A stretch of DNA of 64,000 nt, from assembly GCF_030518155.1 (NCBI RefSeq), contig NZ_JAULRU010000264.1:62001-126000 (forward strand). The letters run 5' to 3'. The DNA comes from Gilvimarinus gilvus. GTDB taxonomy: Bacteria; Pseudomonadota; Gammaproteobacteria; Pseudomonadales; Cellvibrionaceae. The notes beneath the pieces were generated by a model. The model was not told the DNA's origin. It worked only from the letters and a program-made list of their open reading frames with translations, and made no database searches. Below are positions 4,227-22,878 of this stretch, in pieces (within the stretch, counting starts at the first letter, position 1; each line of letters opens with the position of its first letter). The position numbers and the translations under genes were made by a program.

Positions 4227-5117
4227 CTAGCCGGTTAAACCACCATGACCCCGCCCCTTATTACGATCGGCGTCGGTCAATAACTTACCTACCATTGGAA
4301 TATCTAAAAGTGCGCACATATGGGCCTTAACAGTACCTGCCAGCCAAGGGCGCTGAGTTCTCGAGCTGCGCCATTTGACATCCTCCGGATTCAAACTGAT
4401 GGGTTGCTCTACTGTATCCACCGCCAAACCCCACGGCACCCCGTTAATTGATATAACATACTTTGCCGTCTCCTCGAAAGCAGGATCGTAACGCTCAGGC
4501 ATGACAAAGCGCGCCGTGTTCACAGTTCTTACCTTGCCAGAGGGTGTTGGCTGCAGCCCCATAAACCAATCTGCCTGGCCAAACAGAGGTGTAAGCTCAT
4601 CAGTCAGCGGTTGAATCTGCCCCAGCGAGATAAGGGGAACGGCCAGAGTTAAACCACTGACTTTAAACAGCAGCACTTCGAAGGTTTCCTGTGCCCAACG
4701 CGGACGACCGTTCTCAAGCCACTCTAGTTGTTCGTCCAAAACGTTCAGCGCGACGGCATCTTCCAACACCTGCACCTCTGCCTGAGGAACCTCAACTTGT
4801 GGCTCTGGCGTCGGTCGCAATTCTGCCGCCCGCTCAGTGCTGGGCACCGGAACGCTGACTTTGTCCTCTGCAACTTGATCAACTTGAACCCGAGCGCTGT
4901 GCAACAGTTTCTGCAACTGCGCGCGCTTTGCCGCTAACAGCTCGGCATCCGCTACCGGCATCGTCTCAGCGCGAGGCTTTGGTTTGGCTTCTGGTTCGGG
5001 CGTTAACCCAGAGGGCTTGGGTTCTTTATCGCCGCGGAGCGTGTTTTGAGCTGGATGACGGCCGAGCAAGTCGCTGAAATAGTCCTGCAATACATCGCTA
5101 GAATTATGCTCACTCAT
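4227..5117 (-). CDS. parP: ParP-type CheW-domain protein for polar chemotaxis arrays
   Basis: Protein of 296 residues with a variable Pro/Glu-rich N-terminal half (to about 130) and a C-terminal CheW-like domain (about 145-285: FEVLLFKVSGLTLAVPL, then RTVNTARFVMPERY and VPWGLAVDTVEQP). This is the ParP architecture: in Vibrio, ParP ties CheA and receptors to the pole-bound ATPase ParC. The gene starts inside the last codons of parC (4-base overlap), which supports the pairing. It is not a plain CheW because of the long leader and the divergent coupling surface. The name is by context and architecture; pseudomonad annotation often just says CheW domain protein. Confidence 0.85.
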   Translation of the reverse strand: MSEHNSSDVLQDYFSDLLGRHPAQNTLRGDKEPKPSGLTPEPEAKPKPRAETMPVADAELLAAKRAQLQKLLHSARVQVDQVAEDKVSVPVPSTERAAELRPTPEPQVEVPQAEVQVLEDAVALNVLDEQLEWLENGRPRWAQETFEVLLFKVSGLTLAVPLISLGQIQPLTDELTPLFGQADWFMGLQPTPSGKVRTVNTARFVMPERYDPAFEETAKYVISINGVPWGLAVDTVEQPISLNPEDVKWRSSRTQRPWLAGTVKAHMCALLDIPMVGKLLTDADRNKGRGHGGLTG

Positions 5118-5929
5118 CCTCCCACTCCCATAATTTTAGGGCTGTGGTTAGCCGCCTGCTCGTGAGAGCGCGAAAGCCATTTGTAAAGAGAGCGATAAGC
5201 CTCCACTCCGCGACTTTGAGGTTCATATTGATGCGGCGGGATACCGGCTTTACTGGCGTCGCGAAACTTAGTGTCAATCGGGATCTTACCTGGCCAGGTA
5301 TGCGCAGGATAGTCATGACGAATAGTGCGCAGAGTTGAAACCGATGCTTGTGTTCGGCGGTCGTACATTGCCGGGACAATGCTGTAACTCACCTGCTTTT
5401 GGTTTGATTTCGCCATCATTTTTAAAGTATTGACCATTCGCTCCAATCCCTTCAGAGCCAGGAATTCGGTTTGAACCGGTATGATGAGTTCATCGCAGGC
5501 CGCGAGTGCATTAATCATTAACACACCTAAAAGCGGTGGCGTGTCGATAACTGCCAAATCATAATCGCAGCTTACACACGCCAAGGCTTCGCTGATCACG
5601 AGCCCCGCGCCACCTTGTCCGACCGCCTTTCGCTCCAGCGTAGCAAGGGCTGTAGCTGAAGGCACAAGATCAATACCATCAAAGCCGGTCGAAACGAGCA
5701 CTGAATGGACAAAGTCATGGGTTATTCGTTCACGCTCAGTAAAAAGAGTAAAAGCGCTTAATGTGACAGCATCCGGGTTGTGGCCAAAGTAGCTGGTTAG
5801 AGAGCCATGCGGGTCTAGATCGATCAGCAACACGCGCTTGCCCTGCTCGGCGGCCAGGCCGGCAAGAGCTGCGCTGGTGGTTGTTTTACCGACACCACCT
5901 TTCTGATTTGCCACGGTCCAAACGTTCAA
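5114..5929 (-). CDS. parC: ParA-family ATPase ParC, polar positioning of chemotaxis arrays
   Basis: MinD/ParA-type ATPase of 271 residues. The deviant Walker A motif KGGVGKTT is at residues 10-17, the switch I region DLDPHGS follows near residue 38, and the Walker B-like LAVIDTPP is near 130. Partnered with ParP (overlap 4 bases) it would place the chemotaxis array at the flagellated pole. Not a chromosome-partitioning gene, because no parB is near and the neighbours are mot and che genes. A good sigma-54 promoter lies 64 bases upstream, so the parC-parP-cheW block can be made separately from motCD. Confidence 0.9.
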   Translation of the reverse strand: MNVWTVANQKGGVGKTTTSAALAGLAAEQGKRVLLIDLDPHGSLTSYFGHNPDAVTLSAFTLFTERERITHDFVHSVLVSTGFDGIDLVPSATALATLERKAVGQGGAGLVISEALACVSCDYDLAVIDTPPLLGVLMINALAACDELIIPVQTEFLALKGLERMVNTLKMMAKSNQKQVSYSIVPAMYDRRTQASVSTLRTIRHDYPAHTWPGKIPIDTKFRDASKAGIPPHQYEPQSRGVEAYRSLYKWLSRSHEQAANHSPKIMGVGG

Positions 5930-6949: not shown

Positions 6950-7690
6950 TTAATCCAGGTAACCGCTCAGTTTTACCTGAATGGCTTTTGGGTTTTCGCC
7001 GTCGGCAATGCCCATGACGCCCTCTATAAAAAGCTCGTGAAATCGACTGTCTCGGTCGACACATTGGCGCAACTTATTCGCGATTGGCAATAGGAATAGA
7101 TTTGCCAGAGCCACACCGTAGATGGTAGCGACAAACGCTACCGCAATACCGGGCCCCAGTTGCTCTGGGTCCGCCAAATTGCGCATAACATGAATCAAGC
7201 CCATAACGGCGCCTATAATTCCAATAGTAGGAGAATACCCCCCCATACTTTCATAAACTCGCACTGCCTCCATATTTTTTTGCTCTTTCAGGATCATATC
7301 CCCCTCAAGAACACGCTTAATGCTGTCGGGCTCGTTGCCATCTACCAGCAGTTCGAGACTTTTTTTGGCGAATGGATCCTTTTCTTCATCCGCCAATCGC
7401 TCTAACCCTAGCAGCCCTTCCTTGCGGGCTACGGACGACCAATCTGAAATTTTCTTAACCCCTTTGGCATAATCGATCGCAGGGGGTCGAAAGACCCAAC
7501 TGAACATATGAAGCGCGCGCACCAAGCAATCTTTTGGTGTTTGTAGCATTGCGGCGCCCGCTGTGCCGCCAAAAACAATAAACGCCGCGGGTAGATTAAC
7601 CAGCGAACCCAGGCTGCCGCCTTCAATAAAGTTGCCGCCAATTATCGCGGCAAAACCGATAATTACACCTATTATACTAAGCAGGTCCAT
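6950..7690 (-). CDS. motC: Flagellar stator protein MotC (MotA family)
   Basis: Proton-channel stator subunit of 246 residues with four predicted membrane segments: near 2-25, near 30-50, and the pair near 150-170 and 180-205. The MotA/ExbB core segments GGYSPTIGIIGAVMGLIHVM and GIAVAFVATIYGVALANLFL are visible and give the conserved Pro of the motor loop. The start overlaps the cheB stop by one base, so che and mot genes are in one transcript. Confidence 0.93.
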   Translation of the reverse strand: MDLLSIIGVIIGFAAIIGGNFIEGGSLGSLVNLPAAFIVFGGTAGAAMLQTPKDCLVRALHMFSWVFRPPAIDYAKGVKKISDWSSVARKEGLLGLERLADEEKDPFAKKSLELLVDGNEPDSIKRVLEGDMILKEQKNMEAVRVYESMGGYSPTIGIIGAVMGLIHVMRNLADPEQLGPGIAVAFVATIYGVALANLFLLPIANKLRQCVDRDSRFHELFIEGVMGIADGENPKAIQVKLSGYLD

Positions 7691-8805
7691 TAACTGACCT
7701 CATCGGCCAGTGCAGGACCAATATCCTTTAAGGCCAACACACGGTCAGTTAGGTTTGCTCGTGCAACAGCCATCGGCATACCATATATCACACATGAAGC
7801 TTCGTCCTGACTCCAGATCTGCGCGCCTTTTTGTTTGAGCAGCTCCGCTCCTTTGCAGCCGTCAGAACCCATCCCTGTCAGTACCACACCCAATACGCGA
7901 TCGGTGAAGCTGTTGGCTGCGGAACCAAAGGTAATATCCAAACTAGGCTTGTAGTTTACCCGGTCATCATCGGGCATTACTTTTACAGAGGCGCCACGCG
8001 GGTCTACCATCATTTGCTTTCCGCCTGGCGCTAACAGAGCCACCCCGGGCCGCAACACATCGCCATCAACGGCTTCCCTAACTTCAATCGCACACTGCTT
8101 GTTAAGCCGCTCAGCAAATGCTTTGGTAAAATTTTCGGGCATATGCTGCACTAATAAAATGGGCAAAGGCAAATTGCGGGGCAACTTAGTCAAAACTTCC
8201 GTCAAGGCAACGGGCCCACCGGTAGAAGCGCCTATTACAAGCAACTTAGGCTTACTGAATTTTTTCCTCGGTGCGGGAGGGTTTGATGGCGCCACCGCAC
8301 GTTGAGCGGCCTCAACCGGGCGCTGTTGTGGATGTTGATGTGGGCGCGCTGCCTGCTGTGGAGAACTCGGCCTAGCCTGAGGAGCCCTTGACTCCTCTTT
8401 GCTGCTGCCCTGACGGGCCAGAGTAAGCAAACGTTCGTGCAACTTTTGGGTCAGACTAACCGAGTTGCGCGACACCTCAGCAAAATCTTTCGGAATGAAA
8501 TCCAACGCCCCCGCTGCCAGTGCATCAAGAGTAATGCGAGCGCCTTCGTAGGTCAGCGAGGAGAACATTAAAATTGGCGTTGGATCACTCGCCATAATAT
8601 GTTTTACAGCCGTAACCCCATCCATCACCGGCATTTCAAAGTCCATGGTGATAATGTCGGGTTTTACCTTTGCCACCAGATCAATAGCTTCACGGCCGTT
8701 ACTGGCGACAGCGACAACCTGAAGGTTCGCATTTTGCCCAATGATTTCTTTTAAACGGGTTTGAAAAAAATGCGAATCATCAACAATCATTACCCGCACG
8801 GGCAT
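7690..8805 (-). CDS. cheB: Chemotaxis response regulator methylesterase CheB
   Basis: Protein-glutamate methylesterase/glutamine deamidase that resets receptor methylation. An N-terminal receiver domain has acidic residues D9-D10 and the phosphorylation site D55 (MDFEMP). A Pro/Gln/His-rich linker (about 133-180) separates it from the catalytic domain, which shows the serine motif GASTGGP (S194), the histidine in VQHMPENFT (H221) and the aspartate region LTGMGSDG. Length 371 is normal with a somewhat long linker. Opposing CheR is encoded far away at 60961-61818. The gene is 39 bases downstream of cheA. Confidence 0.96.
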   Translation of the reverse strand: MPVRVMIVDDSHFFQTRLKEIIGQNANLQVVAVASNGREAIDLVAKVKPDIITMDFEMPVMDGVTAVKHIMASDPTPILMFSSLTYEGARITLDALAAGALDFIPKDFAEVSRNSVSLTQKLHERLLTLARQGSSKEESRAPQARPSSPQQAARPHQHPQQRPVEAAQRAVAPSNPPAPRKKFSKPKLLVIGASTGGPVALTEVLTKLPRNLPLPILLVQHMPENFTKAFAERLNKQCAIEVREAVDGDVLRPGVALLAPGGKQMMVDPRGASVKVMPDDDRVNYKPSLDITFGSAANSFTDRVLGVVLTGMGSDGCKGAELLKQKGAQIWSQDEASCVIYGMPMAVARANLTDRVLALKDIGPALADEVS

Positions 8806-8844: not shown

Positions 8845-11094
8845 TTAAACACCATTAGAATAGTATTGCAATAAACTCGGGACATCCAAAATCAACGCAA
8901 TGGTGCCATCTCCAGTGATCGTTGCTCCAGCCATTCCCGGGGTGCCCTGTAGCATTTTCCCTAGAGGCTTAATCACCACTTCTTCTTGACCAATGAGTTG
9001 ATCAACGACAAACCCTAATCGTCGCGTACCAACCGACACAATAACAACGTGGCCTTCTTTTTGAGTTTTAGTCGATACATGCTCGCCGTAAACCAACCAG
9101 TTTTTCAGAAAGAAAATTGGTATTGCCTGGTCACGGATGGCAACACACTCTTGTCCATCAACCACGTGGGATTTCGTCAAATCCATATGAAATATTTCGT
9201 TGACACTCACCAGTGGCAGTGCAAAGGTCTGATTCTCCAGCATGATCATCAAAGTAGGCATTATCGCCAGAGTCAGGGGCACTTTAATATTAAAGCGCGT
9301 GCCCTCACCCATTTTGGATTGAATTTCGATGGAGCCATTAAGCTGAGTAATTTTGGTTTTTACTACGTCCATGCCGACGCCGCGACCAGAAACATCGGAA
9401 ATTTCTTTTTTTGTAGAGAAGCCAGGTGCAAAAATCAATGCAAAAGCTTCTTCATCCGTCAATCGCTGTACGGCATCTTCATCGTAAACACCTTTCTCGA
9501 CTGCAATACCCCGCAACTTGTCTGGGTCCATGCCGGCCCCGTCGTCAGTAATGGACAACAGGATATGATCACCTTCTTGCTCTGCACCCAGAACTACCCG
9601 ACCTTTGCGCGGCTTCCCTTTCGCTTCGCGCACCTCGGGAAGCTCAATGCCATGATCGACGGAGTTTCGCACCAAGTGGACCAGCGGATCTGCCAGTGCT
9701 TCTACCAAATTTTTGTCAAGGTCGGTTTCTTCTCCAACCAGCTCAAGGTCGATTTCTTTTTTAAGACTGCGTGCCAAATCCCGAACAACCCGCGGAAACC
9801 GACCAAACACTTTCTTGATAGGCTGCATACGTGTCTTCATAACCGACGTCTGTAAATCGGCCGTCACCACGTCTAGGTTGGATACAGCTTTGCTGAGCGA
9901 TTCATTTTGTACCGTGTCACCCAAACGCACCAACCGATTGCGCACCAGAACCAACTCACCCACCATGTTCATGATTTCGTCAAGTCGTTGGGTGTCAACG
10001 CGAACAGTGGCATCTACCTGGGCGGGAACACCCTCTGCTTTTTTCGCTGCGCCGGGAGCGCCAGTGGATTTTGTCGGGGCGCTGGCAGCCGCGGGTTTTG
10101 GCGCTACGCTTGGCTCTGGAGCGGGCTCAGACTCAACTGTTGCCTTAGGGGGCGGAGGCGGCGCAGAATCTTTAGCGTCTCCCTTTGGGCTATTGCCTTT
10201 GCCGTGCAGCTGATCGAGTAACGCTTCAAACTCATCATCGCTGATGTCTTCGCCATTACTCGCGCTATCGCTAGTGGTAGAAAGATCGGTTGGAGTCGGC
10301 GCGCTTGTCGTTTTTTCCCCAGCTGGACTTTTTCCCTTGCCGTGTAGCTCATCCAGCAACGCTTCAAATTCGTCATCGCTGATTTCGTCAGAGGAGGTGT
10401 TTTTTGTTTGACCAGTCGCTGACTCTTTAGTAGACACTTGAGTCGAACCGGCACCCGGTGGTTTGCCTGAGCCGTGTAGTTGATCCAGCAGAGCATCAAA
10501 TTCGTCTTCCGATATTTCATCACCGCCCGAGCCTGAGCTTGCAGCAGGTGCTTCGTTGCCATTTAATGCATCCAACAAATCGTTAAACTCGTCGTCGGTA
10601 ATATCACTACCTGCTCGAACATTACCTGGACTTTCTGCTACGGCAGGTGCCGCCTGAGAGGCATCATCCTGCGGTACTGCCGTATTCGCCGCACCGGCAA
10701 GGTCTTCGCAAGCGACAAGCTTTTCTAGCTGAGCGATTAAGGCAGGATCGGCATCGGTAAGCGGTTCACGCTGTGATACCTGATCGAATTGAAGATTGAC
10801 AGCGTCTAGAGCTTGCAGCACTACGTCCATTAACTCTGATGTGACCGTGCGTTTGCCATTACGCAAAATATCAAACAAGTTTTCGGTAACATGGCAGCAT
10901 TCGACCATCGCCGTCAATTGCAAGAATCCTGCACCGCCTTTCACAGTATGGAACCCGCGAAAAATAGCGTTTAGCAAATCGCGATCGTCTGGTTTGTTTT
11001 CCAGTTCAACCAGCTGCTCGGAGAGATTCTCCAAAATTTCTCCGGCTTCTACCAGAAAATCCTGTAGAATTTCTTCATCATCACCGAATCCCAT
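8845..11094 (-). CDS. cheA: Chemotaxis histidine kinase CheA with FliM-like repeats in place of P2
   Basis: Central kinase of the flagellar chemotaxis pathway, 749 residues. P1 (Hpt) has the phospho-histidine H49 in FHTVKGG. From about 135 to 360 there is a low-complexity Pro/Ala/Ser linker carrying four near-identical peptides (residues 164-179, 192-208, 236-252, 282-298). P3 dimer domain follows (RVDTQRLDEIMNMVGEL, about 365-430), then the P4 ATPase with NLVRNSVDHGIE-like N box (LVHLVRNSVDHGIE), DDGAGMD and GRGVGMDVV, then the CheW-like P5 to the end. No segment resembling the globular P2 CheY-binding domain is visible. The gene follows cheZ by 11 bases. Confidence 0.96.
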   Translation of the reverse strand: MGFGDDEEILQDFLVEAGEILENLSEQLVELENKPDDRDLLNAIFRGFHTVKGGAGFLQLTAMVECCHVTENLFDILRNGKRTVTSELMDVVLQALDAVNLQFDQVSQREPLTDADPALIAQLEKLVACEDLAGAANTAVPQDDASQAAPAVAESPGNVRAGSDITDDEFNDLLDALNGNEAPAASSGSGGDEISEDEFDALLDQLHGSGKPPGAGSTQVSTKESATGQTKNTSSDEISDDEFEALLDELHGKGKSPAGEKTTSAPTPTDLSTTSDSASNGEDISDDEFEALLDQLHGKGNSPKGDAKDSAPPPPPKATVESEPAPEPSVAPKPAAASAPTKSTGAPGAAKKAEGVPAQVDATVRVDTQRLDEIMNMVGELVLVRNRLVRLGDTVQNESLSKAVSNLDVVTADLQTSVMKTRMQPIKKVFGRFPRVVRDLARSLKKEIDLELVGEETDLDKNLVEALADPLVHLVRNSVDHGIELPEVREAKGKPRKGRVVLGAEQEGDHILLSITDDGAGMDPDKLRGIAVEKGVYDEDAVQRLTDEEAFALIFAPGFSTKKEISDVSGRGVGMDVVKTKITQLNGSIEIQSKMGEGTRFNIKVPLTLAIMPTLMIMLENQTFALPLVSVNEIFHMDLTKSHVVDGQECVAIRDQAIPIFFLKNWLVYGEHVSTKTQKEGHVVIVSVGTRRLGFVVDQLIGQEEVVIKPLGKMLQGTPGMAGATITGDGTIALILDVPSLLQYYSNGV
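10201..10605 (-). repeat. Four copies of a [IT]S-D/E-DEF-ALLDxLHG peptide repeat inside cheA
   Basis: The encoded copies are ITDDEFNDLLDALNG, ISEDEFDALLDQLHG, ISDDEFEALLDELHG and ISDDEFEALLDQLHG, spaced 28, 44 and 46 residues start to start within an unstructured linker. At DNA level the copies are similar but not identical, with several synonymous changes, so the peptide rather than the DNA appears conserved. Consensus [ST]-x-D-E-F-[DEN]-[AD]-L-L matches the FliM N-terminus (TQDEIDALL) and the CheZ C-terminus (SQDEVDDLL) of this same cluster. Confidence 0.9.
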
Positions 11095-11105
11095 GCACTC
11101 TTCCT

Positions 11106-11900
11106 CTAGAAGCCAAGACTGGACAACAAGTCGTCCACTTCATCTTGACTAGAAACCACATCTTGTTTTTCTTTATTAATTTGCGGGCCTTCACCTTTTG
11201 TGTTGTCAATAACACGGGCCTTGCCTTCGTTATCGGCCTCTACGCTCAAACCTGTAATTTCTTCAACTTGCCCGGCAATTCGAACTAAGCTGACCAAATC
11301 CTGTTCGACTTCACTGATCAAGCCCATGACACGCTTAAGAACCTGCCCCGTTAAATCCTGAAACCCCTGTTCCAGAATGATATCCTGCAGGTTTTTGCCT
11401 AGCTGTTCGGTACCACTTTCCATTTGCCCGAGAAAGTCATCCATTCGGGTGTAAAGCGCGCGGAATTCATCGGCGCTCATATCACCGCTTTGCAAACGCG
11501 TCCATTCCGATCGCAATGAATTCGCTTCCTGACCTAAATTCATCGCAATGGGAGCGGCTTCTTCCACCATATCCATGGTTTTATCAGCAGCCTTTTGCGT
11601 GAGTTCAATAACGTAGCGTAAACGATCTGTCGCATCGCGTATTTCAGAACGCTCTATACTGGGGGGTTCAGAGGAGAGGTCACCATCGACATTAAAGTTA
11701 ACAATGGCGCTGTGCAGGCCTCGGGTAAGCCGACCTACTGATTGATACAAATGTTGATCGCGTGATGAGATAATGGATTGAATCAGCTGGGAGGCCTCAT
11801 CAAAATCGTTTCCCTGAAGCTTTTCAACCAGCAAACTGGCACTTTCTTGCAGTTCGTTAACGAACATCTGGTTGTCATGGTCCTGAATATCAGAAGTCAT
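11106..11900 (-). CDS. cheZ: CheY-phosphate phosphatase CheZ
   Basis: Cytoplasmic phosphatase that ends the chemotaxis signal by dephosphorylating CheY-P. 264 residues, mostly helical, with the active-site helix containing LEQGFQDLTGQVLKRV (the Q of QDLTGQ is the catalytic glutamine of the family). The C-terminal tail SSQDEVDDLLSSLGF is the tethered CheY-binding helix; it also resembles the FliM N-terminus. It is 27 bases after cheY and 11 before cheA. Confidence 0.95.
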   Translation of the reverse strand: MTSDIQDHDNQMFVNELQESASLLVEKLQGNDFDEASQLIQSIISSRDQHLYQSVGRLTRGLHSAIVNFNVDGDLSSEPPSIERSEIRDATDRLRYVIELTQKAADKTMDMVEEAAPIAMNLGQEANSLRSEWTRLQSGDMSADEFRALYTRMDDFLGQMESGTEQLGKNLQDIILEQGFQDLTGQVLKRVMGLISEVEQDLVSLVRIAGQVEEITGLSVEADNEGKARVIDNTKGEGPQINKEKQDVVSSQDEVDDLLSSLGF

Positions 11901-11927: not shown

Positions 11928-12311
11928 CTAGCCTACGCGCTCGAAAATTTTGTCAATTTTCTCTTTCAAGGCTGCCGCTGTAAAAGGCTTTACGACGTAG
12001 CCATTTACACCAGCTTGCGCGGCCTCGACTATCTGATCTCGCTTCGCCTCGGCCGTGACCATTAGCACCGGCAAAGTTGCCAGCTTTTCATCAGACCGAA
12101 CCTCCTTAAGCAAGTCAATGCCGGTCATACCTGGCATATTCCAGTCGGTAATTAAGAAGTCAAACCCTCCGCTTTTCAGCATCGGTAGCGCAGTCACACC
12201 ATCATCGGCCTCGTGGGTATTGGTAAACCCTAAGTCCCTAAGTAGATTCTTGATGATCCGCCGCATCGTCGAAAAGTCATCAACGATTAGAATCTTCATT
12301 TCTTTATCCAA
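11928..12311 (-). CDS. cheY: Chemotaxis response regulator CheY
   Basis: Single receiver-domain protein that, phosphorylated by CheA, binds FliM to change motor rotation. Acidic pocket DD near residues 12-13, phospho-acceptor in [10 protein letters not shown] (D of TDW), T/S switch in VMVTAEA, and the conserved K in VVKPF. The TTG start at 12311 is preferred over the ATG four codons later: GGAGG lies 5 bases upstream of the TTG, and the resulting N-terminus [12 protein letters not shown] aligns with E. coli MADKELKFLVVDD. With the ATG the protein is 123 residues. The 139 bases to fliA hold a hairpin but no clear promoter. Confidence 0.95.
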
Positions 12312-21413: not shown

Positions 21414-21881
21414 TTAGCGCAGCTTTTTAATACGTTCTGATGGACTGATAACATCGGTCATACGGATACCGAATTTTTCATTGACCACCACCACTTCTCC
21501 ATGAGCGATTAATGTGCCGTTAACTTTAACATCTAATGGTTCACCCGCCAGTCGATCCAGCTCAATGACCGAACCTTGATTCAACTGCAGAAGGTTGCGA
21601 ATAGTAATTGACGTACTTCCAACCTCCATTGAGATACTGACCGGAATATCGAGGATGAGATCAAGCTCGGGACCTAGCTCACGCGGGGCACCTTCATTTT
21701 TCAACTCATCCAAACCCATCGGGTTCGCTTCTGCCTCGGCCTGAGCGAGTACGTCGTCGACGTCCACTTCTCCCTCATCAGTAGCCACTTGCTCTTGCAT
21801 CGCAGCAGCCCACTCATCGGCCATAGCATCCTGATCTACGTCGGCATCCTCACCAGGATTGGTATCGTCATCATTTGCCAC
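21414..21881 (-). CDS. fliN: Flagellar motor switch protein FliN
   Basis: C-ring protein of 155 residues. The N-terminal half is acidic (residues 1-70) and the C-terminal half is the SpoA domain (about 75-152) with ILDIPVSISMEVGSTSITIR, LNQGSVIELDRLAGEPLDV and NGTLIAHGEVVVVNEKFGIR. It begins with GTG, preceded by the strong GGGGG purine run, and overlaps fliM by 11 bases. It works with FliM and FliG as the rotor switch and docking site for FliH. Confidence 0.96.
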   Translation of the reverse strand: MANDDDTNPGEDADVDQDAMADEWAAAMQEQVATDEGEVDVDDVLAQAEAEANPMGLDELKNEGAPRELGPELDLILDIPVSISMEVGSTSITIRNLLQLNQGSVIELDRLAGEPLDVKVNGTLIAHGEVVVVNEKFGIRMTDVISPSERIKKLR

Positions 21882-22878
21882 GTGAACCCCCTTCTGCTGC
21901 CGTTATATTGTATGCATTGCTGTGATCGATAAAATCATTAATTTTCAAAGATAGATTGCCTCGATGCTGCCCCAATTGCGTTCGGAATACCGGGACGCCA
22001 TTGGCCGTCATTATGTGCTGATCAGGCCACTCAATGGGGATTACATCGCCCGCCTCCAAATCAACAATGTCACGAAGTGTTATTTCCCGATTAACCAGTT
22101 CACATTCTAGTTCCACTGCGGCCGACAACACGTCTTCGCGCAAAGCTTTGACCCAACGTTCGTCTTGTTCATCGCTGTCACTTTGCAAGCCAGCATCCAG
22201 AACCTCGCGAATCGGCTCAATCATTGAATATGGAATTGTCAGATGCAGCTCGCCACCACCACCGTCGAGTTCGATATGGAACGTACTAACGACCACCACC
22301 TCACTGGGGCTGACAATATTTGCCAGAGACGGGTTAACCTCAGAGTTTATGTATTCAAACTCAATGGGCATGACAGCCTTCCATGCCTCACCGAGATCGA
22401 CAAACACTTGGTTCAGTACCATTTGTACAACACGCAATTCGGTGGGGGTAAATTCGCGCCCCTCAATTTTGGCATGTCGCCCATCGCCGCCAAAAAAATT
22501 ATCCACCAACTTAAAAACCAGGCGCGCATCGAGGATGACCAACGCGGTGCCCCGCAACGGCCGAAACTTAACCATATTCAAGCTGGTTGGTACATAAAGA
22601 GTGTGAACATACTCGCCGAATTTTTGAATCTGAATACCCCCTACCGAAACATCGGCTGTACGTCTAAGCATGTTAAACATACTAATTCGGGTATAGCGGG
22701 CAAAACGCTCGTTAATCATTTCCAGAGTCGGCATCCGACCTCGTACGATGCGATCCTGACTGGTTAAGTCATAGGATCTGACCGCACCGGGATCACCATC
22801 GCCCTCGGTATCAATATCGCCATCATCCACACCGTGAAGAAGCGCGTCGATTTCATCCTGGGTAAGTAAGTCCTGCAC
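21871..22878 (-). CDS. fliM: Flagellar motor switch protein FliM
   Basis: C-ring protein that binds CheY-P. The N-terminal CheY-binding peptide DLLTQDEIDALLHG is at residues 3-16, followed by an acidic linker, the CheC-like middle domain (about 50-230) and a C-terminal SpoA domain. 335 residues, normal length. It begins with GTG at 22878, with GAGG 8 bases upstream. It lies 10 bases after fliL. The N-terminal peptide recurs in variant form in CheZ and four times in CheA of this cluster. Confidence 0.97.
   Translation of the reverse strand: MQDLLTQDEIDALLHGVDDGDIDTEGDGDPGAVRSYDLTSQDRIVRGRMPTLEMINERFARYTRISMFNMLRRTADVSVGGIQIQKFGEYVHTLYVPTSLNMVKFRPLRGTALVILDARLVFKLVDNFFGGDGRHAKIEGREFTPTELRVVQMVLNQVFVDLGEAWKAVMPIEFEYINSEVNPSLANIVSPSEVVVVSTFHIELDGGGGELHLTIPYSMIEPIREVLDAGLQSDSDEQDERWVKALREDVLSAAVELECELVNREITLRDIVDLEAGDVIPIEWPDQHIMTANGVPVFRTQLGQHRGNLSLKINDFIDHSNAYNITAAEGGSRGK

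Follow-up and report, generated by a model that had tools for sequence, protein, structure and literature searches.

We analysed a 64,000-nucleotide stretch of the 4.78-Mb genome of Gilvimarinus gilvus (hereafter the window), and in particular the linker between the P1 and P3 domains of the chemotaxis kinase CheA encoded in it. All window features given below lie on the minus strand. The cheA gene (8845..11094) codes for a protein of 749 amino acids in which Pfam detected, in this order, Hpt (the P1 domain; residues 8-99, 10798..11073, E 4.2e-18), H-kinase_dim (the P3 dimerisation domain; residues 362-421, 9832..10011), HATPase_c (residues 469-608) and CheW (residues 615-743). This is the P1-P3-P4-P5 architecture of a CheA histidine kinase without P2. 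The P1 region was also matched by Foldseek to CheA P1 structures. The closest named CheAs come from Gilvimarinus, and we infer that the protein is of the F6 type.

The initial annotation of the window had placed four FliM-like, CheY-docking peptides in this linker, at 10201-10605, instead of a P2 domain. All four were found in frame in CheA, and the span was correct within 3 bases. The copies are ITDDEFNDLLDALNG (residues 165-179, 10558..10602), which is the most diverged, ISEDEFDALLDQLHG (residues 194-208, 10471..10515), ISDDEFEALLDELHG (residues 238-252, 10339..10383) and ISDDEFEALLDQLHG (residues 284-298, 10201..10245). They share the pattern I-[ST]-[DE]-D-E-F-x-x-L-L-D-x-L-x-G. An 18-column hidden Markov model (HMM) of the motif, run against the whole genome, retrieved the four copies with E-values from 2.1e-11 to 9.1e-5 (the latter for the first copy); the next match had an E-value of 1.43, and no further motif-bearing protein was detected in the genome by this model. 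When the residues of the linker were shuffled 20,000 times, not a single match arose, compared to four in the actual sequence.

Residues 1-360 were modelled with AlphaFold2 (46-row alignment, mean predicted local distance difference test score 69.6). P1 was modelled with high confidence at residues 1-127, while the only helices predicted in the linker, at residues 167-178, 196-207, 240-250 and 286-296, correspond to the four copies. The model has no strands in the linker, and the helices are separated by low-confidence coil.

The copies are not a recent DNA repeat, since Tandem Repeats Finder reported no array at 9000-11500 and the differences between copies 2 and 4 are mostly synonymous (nine synonymous and two non-synonymous codon differences among 15 codons). 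Membership of the protein in SHOCT (PF09851) or GemA (PF06252) was rejected as well, with 22.2 and 25.3 bits, respectively, versus the Pfam gathering score of 27 in both cases. An open reading frame (ORF) of 152 amino acids in another frame (10104-10562) overlaps the repeat region.

The absence of a globular P2-like segment, also claimed initially, was borne out. No P2/CheY-binding model matched the window CheA at E<=1 in Pfam, where we take PF07194 to be the P2/CheY-binding domain of CheA beside PF09078. A hidden P2 fold, the finding that was to overturn the initial proposal, was sought between P1 and P3 with Pfam, with our own P2 profile and in the strandless AlphaFold2 linker, and was rejected by all three. 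The top Foldseek match of the model was 2lp4 (P1 with P2), at a root-mean-square deviation of 16.9, with P1-only structures close behind. The P2 domain (PF09078) occupies the same place between P1 and P3 as the repeats, for which the same job is presumed; P2, however, is globular, whereas the linker of the window CheA has short predicted helices.

For the distribution of the motif we relied on even genome draws and on one named scan made up largely of Cellvibrionales and Pseudomonas. In the draw from the class, 106 of 281 genomes matched CheA at E<=1e-150. Together with relatives, the named scan and five CheAs from a draw of the phylum, this draw yielded 210 CheAs (205 distinct sequences), each admitted at a score above 500 bits against the window CheA, a level that the manually added L139-L142 exceed as well. 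One to four copies were present in the scanned part of 204 of the 210 CheAs: four copies in 61, three in 86, two in 48, one in nine and none in six. Five of the six zero counts came from damaged records, namely L095, with a broken frame and one copy outside the scanned part, and L100, L108, L122 and L138, which are cut or masked. The sixth, L143 (503 bits), is the only full CheA without the motif among them. Fourteen additional CheAs outside the 210 have three or four copies each. Named Pseudomonas and Stutzerimonas loci have two to four, as had been guessed at first for pseudomonads, and the suspicion that copy number varies among relatives proved right. The repeats are thus a feature of this CheA type and not only of the Gilvimarinus CheA.

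Three side observations concern linkers of related CheAs. In addition to the main motif, the linkers of L018, L020 and L016 have, judged by eye, one or two acidic peptides of the kind GVELFGE or GIDLFDD near P1. In the family of L120 and L131, where no ParP was detected, ITD[DE]EFE-x-L-L is retained as part of another unit of greater length (LPEGVDPDGDITDDEFEALLNQRD in L120). Finally, L143 and L147 are related CheAs with neither P2 nor motif, in which the linker has DDINWDALHAVL or GPEWEKLFGAI, possibly a diverged peptide.

The consensus of 607 units reads I (95%), T/S, D/E, D/E, E, F, E/D, A, L, L, D (95%), Q, L (87%), H (72%), G (80%), K, G. The F at position 6 is there by construction, as the collection rule demanded F or Y; with a laxer rule also admitting I, V, L, M and W it was still F in nearly all motif-like units. 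The linker as a whole varies among relatives in sequence and length, and divergence is usually stronger in the first copy than in those that follow. The mean majority fraction was 0.84 in the motif columns and 0.83 in P1, compared to only 0.38 in the spacers. Columns conserved at 80% or more between P1 and P3 were confined to the motifs with adjoining residues, four isolated prolines and the start of P3. When the last three copies were compared with those of seven CheAs of the same genus, 134 codons were identical and the differences were 166 synonymous and 15 non-synonymous; the copies are therefore kept by purifying selection.

We also compared the distribution of the motif with that of P2. 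Pfam CheY-binding matches were absent from all 45 CheAs of the window type (44 motif-bearing ones and L143) and from 11 further CheAs, eight of them with a receiver domain; among 24 CheAs of other types, eight had one. When 256 CheAs were scored with a P2 profile derived from these 24, the motif alone was present in 204, P2 alone in 27, neither in 25 and both in none. Of the P2-only proteins 21 had been rows of the profile and six had not (L024, L029-L032 and L176), while the 25 with neither include the five broken, cut or masked sequences named above. Such non-overlap is consistent with replacement of P2 by the motif, and does not prove it.

The neighbourhood of cheA offers several candidate readers of the repeats. 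From 12311 down to 4227 the minus strand carries cheY, cheZ, cheA, cheB, two mot-like genes (identified by eye), parC and parP. CheY (11928..12311), the presumed reader of the peptides, matched the NCBIfam CheY equivalog with 199.5 bits versus a cut-off of 189. CheZ (11106..11900) was recognised by Pfam with an E-value of 2.6e-70, and CheB (7690..8805), with Pfam receiver and methylesterase domains, is a possible further reader. ParC (5114..5929) is a ParA-type ATPase (Pfam AAA_31, E 2.1e-42) named from its neighbourhood. ParP (4227..5117), the rival reader, has a CheW-like C-terminal domain (Pfam) with an RPWLAGTV box seen in an alignment of 24 sequences; its name comes from homology and gene order.

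Peptides resembling the CheA units occur in two other proteins of the window. One is the C-terminal peptide of CheZ, SSQDEVDDLLSSLGF (11109..11153), the best window 13-mer outside CheA. The other is the N-terminal peptide of FliM, LTQDEIDALLHGV (22828..22866), in an ORF (21871-22878) identified as FliM by its sequence and by matches obtained in 29 of 30 genomes. The CheZ C-terminal peptide binds CheY. For FliM, the N-terminal CheY-binding motif has been given as LSQxEIDxLL (PMC5677366).

Like the FliM motif, the CheA copies have a hydrophobic residue, S/T (S/T/N in the form of the pattern that we scanned), acidic residues, E, a hydrophobic residue, D/E, any residue and L-L. They differ from it in having D/E for the Q at the third position and F for the I/V at the sixth, in the D-x-L-H-G that follows L-L, and in being internal and repeated whereas the FliM peptide is N-terminal and single. 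The CheZ tail shares with them L-L-x-x-L with a G shortly after it; its core, however, is Q-D-[DE]-V-D-D, and it stands in a single copy at the extreme C terminus.

A BLOSUM-smoothed profile of 46 CheA units, applied to the 31,962 13-mers of the window, ranked the four copies first, the CheZ tail fifth and the FliM head eighth. Among 2,579,826 non-CheA 13-mers the top one was a CheZ tail (in L131), with 74 scoring at or above the window CheZ tail and 95 at or above the window FliM head. A loose pattern run over six frames of the 64-kb window found the FliM head, the CheZ tail, the four CheA copies and nothing else. A stricter pattern, which itself excludes the usual CheZ tail, gave 408 matches in 10,793 ORFs (2.45 million amino acids, a set without FliM loci), all of them in CheA. 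Judged from these comparisons, the likeness to CheZ and FliM peptides is above background and short of identity. The initial label "FliM-like" thus stands, with the qualification that the Q and I/V positions differ.

We propose, at roughly an even chance, that the four peptides are tandem short linear CheY-docking motifs standing in for P2. Each copy would fold as an N-capped amphipathic helix, with I-S/T-D-D-E-F as the cap and L-L on one face, and would be expected on the CheY face used by the FliM and CheZ peptides. A disordered tether between P1 and P3 would keep CheY beside phospho-P1, and with CheY held there the copies would take over the role of the absent P2 domain. There would be eight weak sites per CheA dimer, by which CheY might be concentrated locally or kept in store. 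CheY as the reader, the face it would use and the effect on phosphotransfer are all steps that we infer.

A number of results weigh against this proposal. The contrast between motif and P2 is mostly one between clades and not one of many independent events. The profile scores were narrowly spaced, with 15.04 bits for the CheZ tail, 15.00 and 14.76 for two unrelated window peptides and 14.40 for the FliM head; among 1,369 non-CheA 13-mers above 8 bits, 1,027 belonged to proteins that carry neither the CheZ nor the FliM label, and one helix, from a protein family of about 700 amino acids (probably FlhA), outscored the window CheZ and FliM peptides. The unsmoothed profile gave the window FliM head -5.2 and the CheZ tail 3.5, and the motif HMM retrieved neither protein from the genome at E<=10.

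With regard to single positions, all 25 FliM heads and all 185 pattern-matched CheZ tails had Q, compared to D/E in 98% of the 607 CheA units, and the I/V of FliM and CheZ (25 of 25 FliM heads) is F in CheA. The FliM heads came from 30 genomes, 29 of which had a match; 25 heads were read by script, those of L307 and L315 were read separately and also have the motif, and those of L312 and L316 were not recovered. The CheZ tails were the 185 of 200 that fit the script pattern, most of the remaining 15 looking like variants by eye. Pfam SHOCT, which presumably starts with I-T-x-E-E-F, matched 22 of 45 relatives at E<=0.01, and its cut-off was passed in one of them (L120, 32.6 bits for the whole protein versus 27; L034 and L035 had 22.1 and 21.4). 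Given the high ranks on the one hand and the many unrelated proteins and SHOCT on the other, part of the likeness may be that of a generic N-capped acidic helix. FliM peptides, besides, prefer phosphorylated CheY, and a substrate dock would call for the reverse preference. Finally, no CheY was seen in the covered stretch of three loci of one family (L085, L087 and L103; 12.7-20 kb), the rest of these genomes not having been searched.

A different reader would be ParP. The repeats would then be the region called LID, one or more copies of which would be bound by the CheW-like domain of ParP so that the array stays at the pole, perhaps with the LHGKG part as the contact. We regard this as unlikely; still, ParP remains a live alternative because LID has been published as a ParP-binding region of CheA between P2 and P3, said, in the portions of these reports available to us, to occur only in CheAs with ParC/ParP (PMC5706961, PMC7534058). 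Like the window repeats, the Vibrio LID described there lies before P3 in such CheAs, a comparison made by description and not by sequence. ParP and ParC are encoded in the same cluster here and near cheA in many relatives, and the motifs are nearly the sole conserved elements between P1 and P3.

On the other hand, the motif persists in genomes in which no ParP was recognised. Of 69 genomes searched with a profile built from 24 ParPs, 60 matched at 1e-6, several as CheW only. The profile had no match anywhere in G182 and G262 and only a CheW-like one in G035 and G046, although a diverged ParP could have escaped it in any of the four; near cheA in these four there was neither a ParP nor a ParC-like match above 39 bits, ParC having been sought only near cheA. 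ParC-like matches of 31-39 bits upstream of cheY in three of the four are probably another ParA relative. The four genomes nevertheless keep the core motif, with two copies in G035, one in G046, three in G182 and two in G262, so the published restriction of LID to CheAs with ParC/ParP, as far as it is stated in the text we had, fits the motifs poorly.

Less clear cases without a ParP match are G152, G049, G167 and G284 (a family member with ParC, a contig end, masking or a short flank). Eight more genomes, G113, G240, G154, G242, G073, G183, G274 and G199, have no clear ParP (the match in G199 spans only 49 profile positions); in each of them a ParC neighbour scores above 180 bits, and a diverged ParP may be present. 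Nor does the LHG extension track ParP: G035 (with one LHG and one LYG) and G046 retain it, and the ParP-bearing G127, G220 and G292 lack it. G182 and G262 had suggested that the LHGKG tail goes specifically with ParP, a view that is unsupported, as tail and ParP dissociate both ways.

CheZ as the sole reader is likewise unsupported, because no CheZ match was found in the motif-bearing G046 and G105. From such genomes ParP and CheZ look dispensable as readers. In G035, G046, G105, G182 and G262, cheY shares a locus with cheA; at twelve motif-type loci CheY was not seen in the stretch covered, nine of them having short flanks or contig ends and the other three being the longer L085, L087 and L103 stretches named above.

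Further alternatives share the function among partners or dispense with an outside partner. The core I-T-D-D-E-F-E-A-L-L might hold CheY while some copies or the LHGKG tail hold ParP, CheB or CheV, making the linker a mixed hub. The core is indeed kept where the tail changes (ITDDEFEALLNQRD in G182, ITDEEFELLLQMRE in G262), and the stronger divergence of the first copy would suit a division of labour; with tail and ParP not tracking each other, we hold this to be distinctly unlikely. The helices, well placed between P1 and P3, might instead act within CheA by binding its P1, P4 or P5 domain and so adjusting kinase activity, with no outside partner. This is very unlikely in our view: copy number (one to four) and spacing vary, unlike those of a latch, and the likeness to CheZ and FliM is left unexplained. 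That the linker is only an acidic tether, its helices having no specific partner, would agree with its variable sequence and length and with the low model confidence outside the helices. Such a tether is hard to reconcile with motif columns as conserved as P1 and with the excess of synonymous differences, and we give it hardly any credence. Overall, the initial observation was confirmed, and docking of CheY is a plausible and partly supported interpretation of it, with CheY as the putative reader.

Linker peptides of other kinds occur in further CheAs. The second CheA of the genome (G000:C302; L001:514-2493, minus strand) has in its linker four copies of a repeat unrelated to the motif, APYGLYDDP, NWGLFDG, EAFGFFEPL and AAFGFFEDI, and this repeat, [FYW]-G-[FL]-[FY], also occurs in the linkers of L033 (four), L330 (four) and L159 (three). 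Pfam found no P2 in L001, L033 and L159. The P2 profile missed L001 and L033, gave L330 0.2 bits and matched L159, itself a profile row, at E 1.1e-4, just outside the threshold.

Among alphaproteobacterial CheAs, one or two copies of a linker peptide like L-x-P-G-E-V-S-L-D-E-L-E-x-A-F were present in 6 of 16 and 7 of 27 in two sets with two genomes in common (L150, L157, L161, L170, L172, L173, L259, L260, L264, L265, L274 with two copies, L276 with a weak one, and L283). By eye, the P1-P3 linkers of the alphaproteobacterial L273, L278, L279, L282, L286 and L287 have a folded-looking stretch resembling truncated haemoglobin.

The peptides of the second CheA and of the alphaproteobacterial CheAs are leads for a broader idea, which we put forward tentatively and consider rather doubtful. 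Loss of P2 might be a general swap in which each class of P2-less CheA has in its P1-P3 linker its own short, often repeated, docking peptide matched to its own CheY, insulating parallel chemosensory systems of one cell from each other.

According to the accessible part of a survey of P2-less CheAs, more than half of CheAs have no P2 (PMC10782961); its text uses neither "FliM" nor "disordered", and no repeated motif is described in the part available. We found no prior description of these repeats in the open-access literature, and subscription journals may hold one. CheY positions facing P1 and P2 are reported, in the portion of the source available, to differ between F6 and later F7 systems (PMC7184735), which fits an F6 CheA contacting CheY in another way. 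A 2026 paper argues, in the text accessible to us, that a P2-less CheA should be precluded from direct motor control (PMC13390405).

If the linker peptides dock CheY, that exclusion from motor control would fail. Chemotaxis of the Pseudomonas type would then gain a concrete step of CheY recruitment, in which FliM and CheZ would be competitors at a single face of CheY, and a rule that keeps several chemosensory systems in one cell from cross-talk would become testable. If ParP is the reader instead, LID would gain a precise, repeated recognition sequence.

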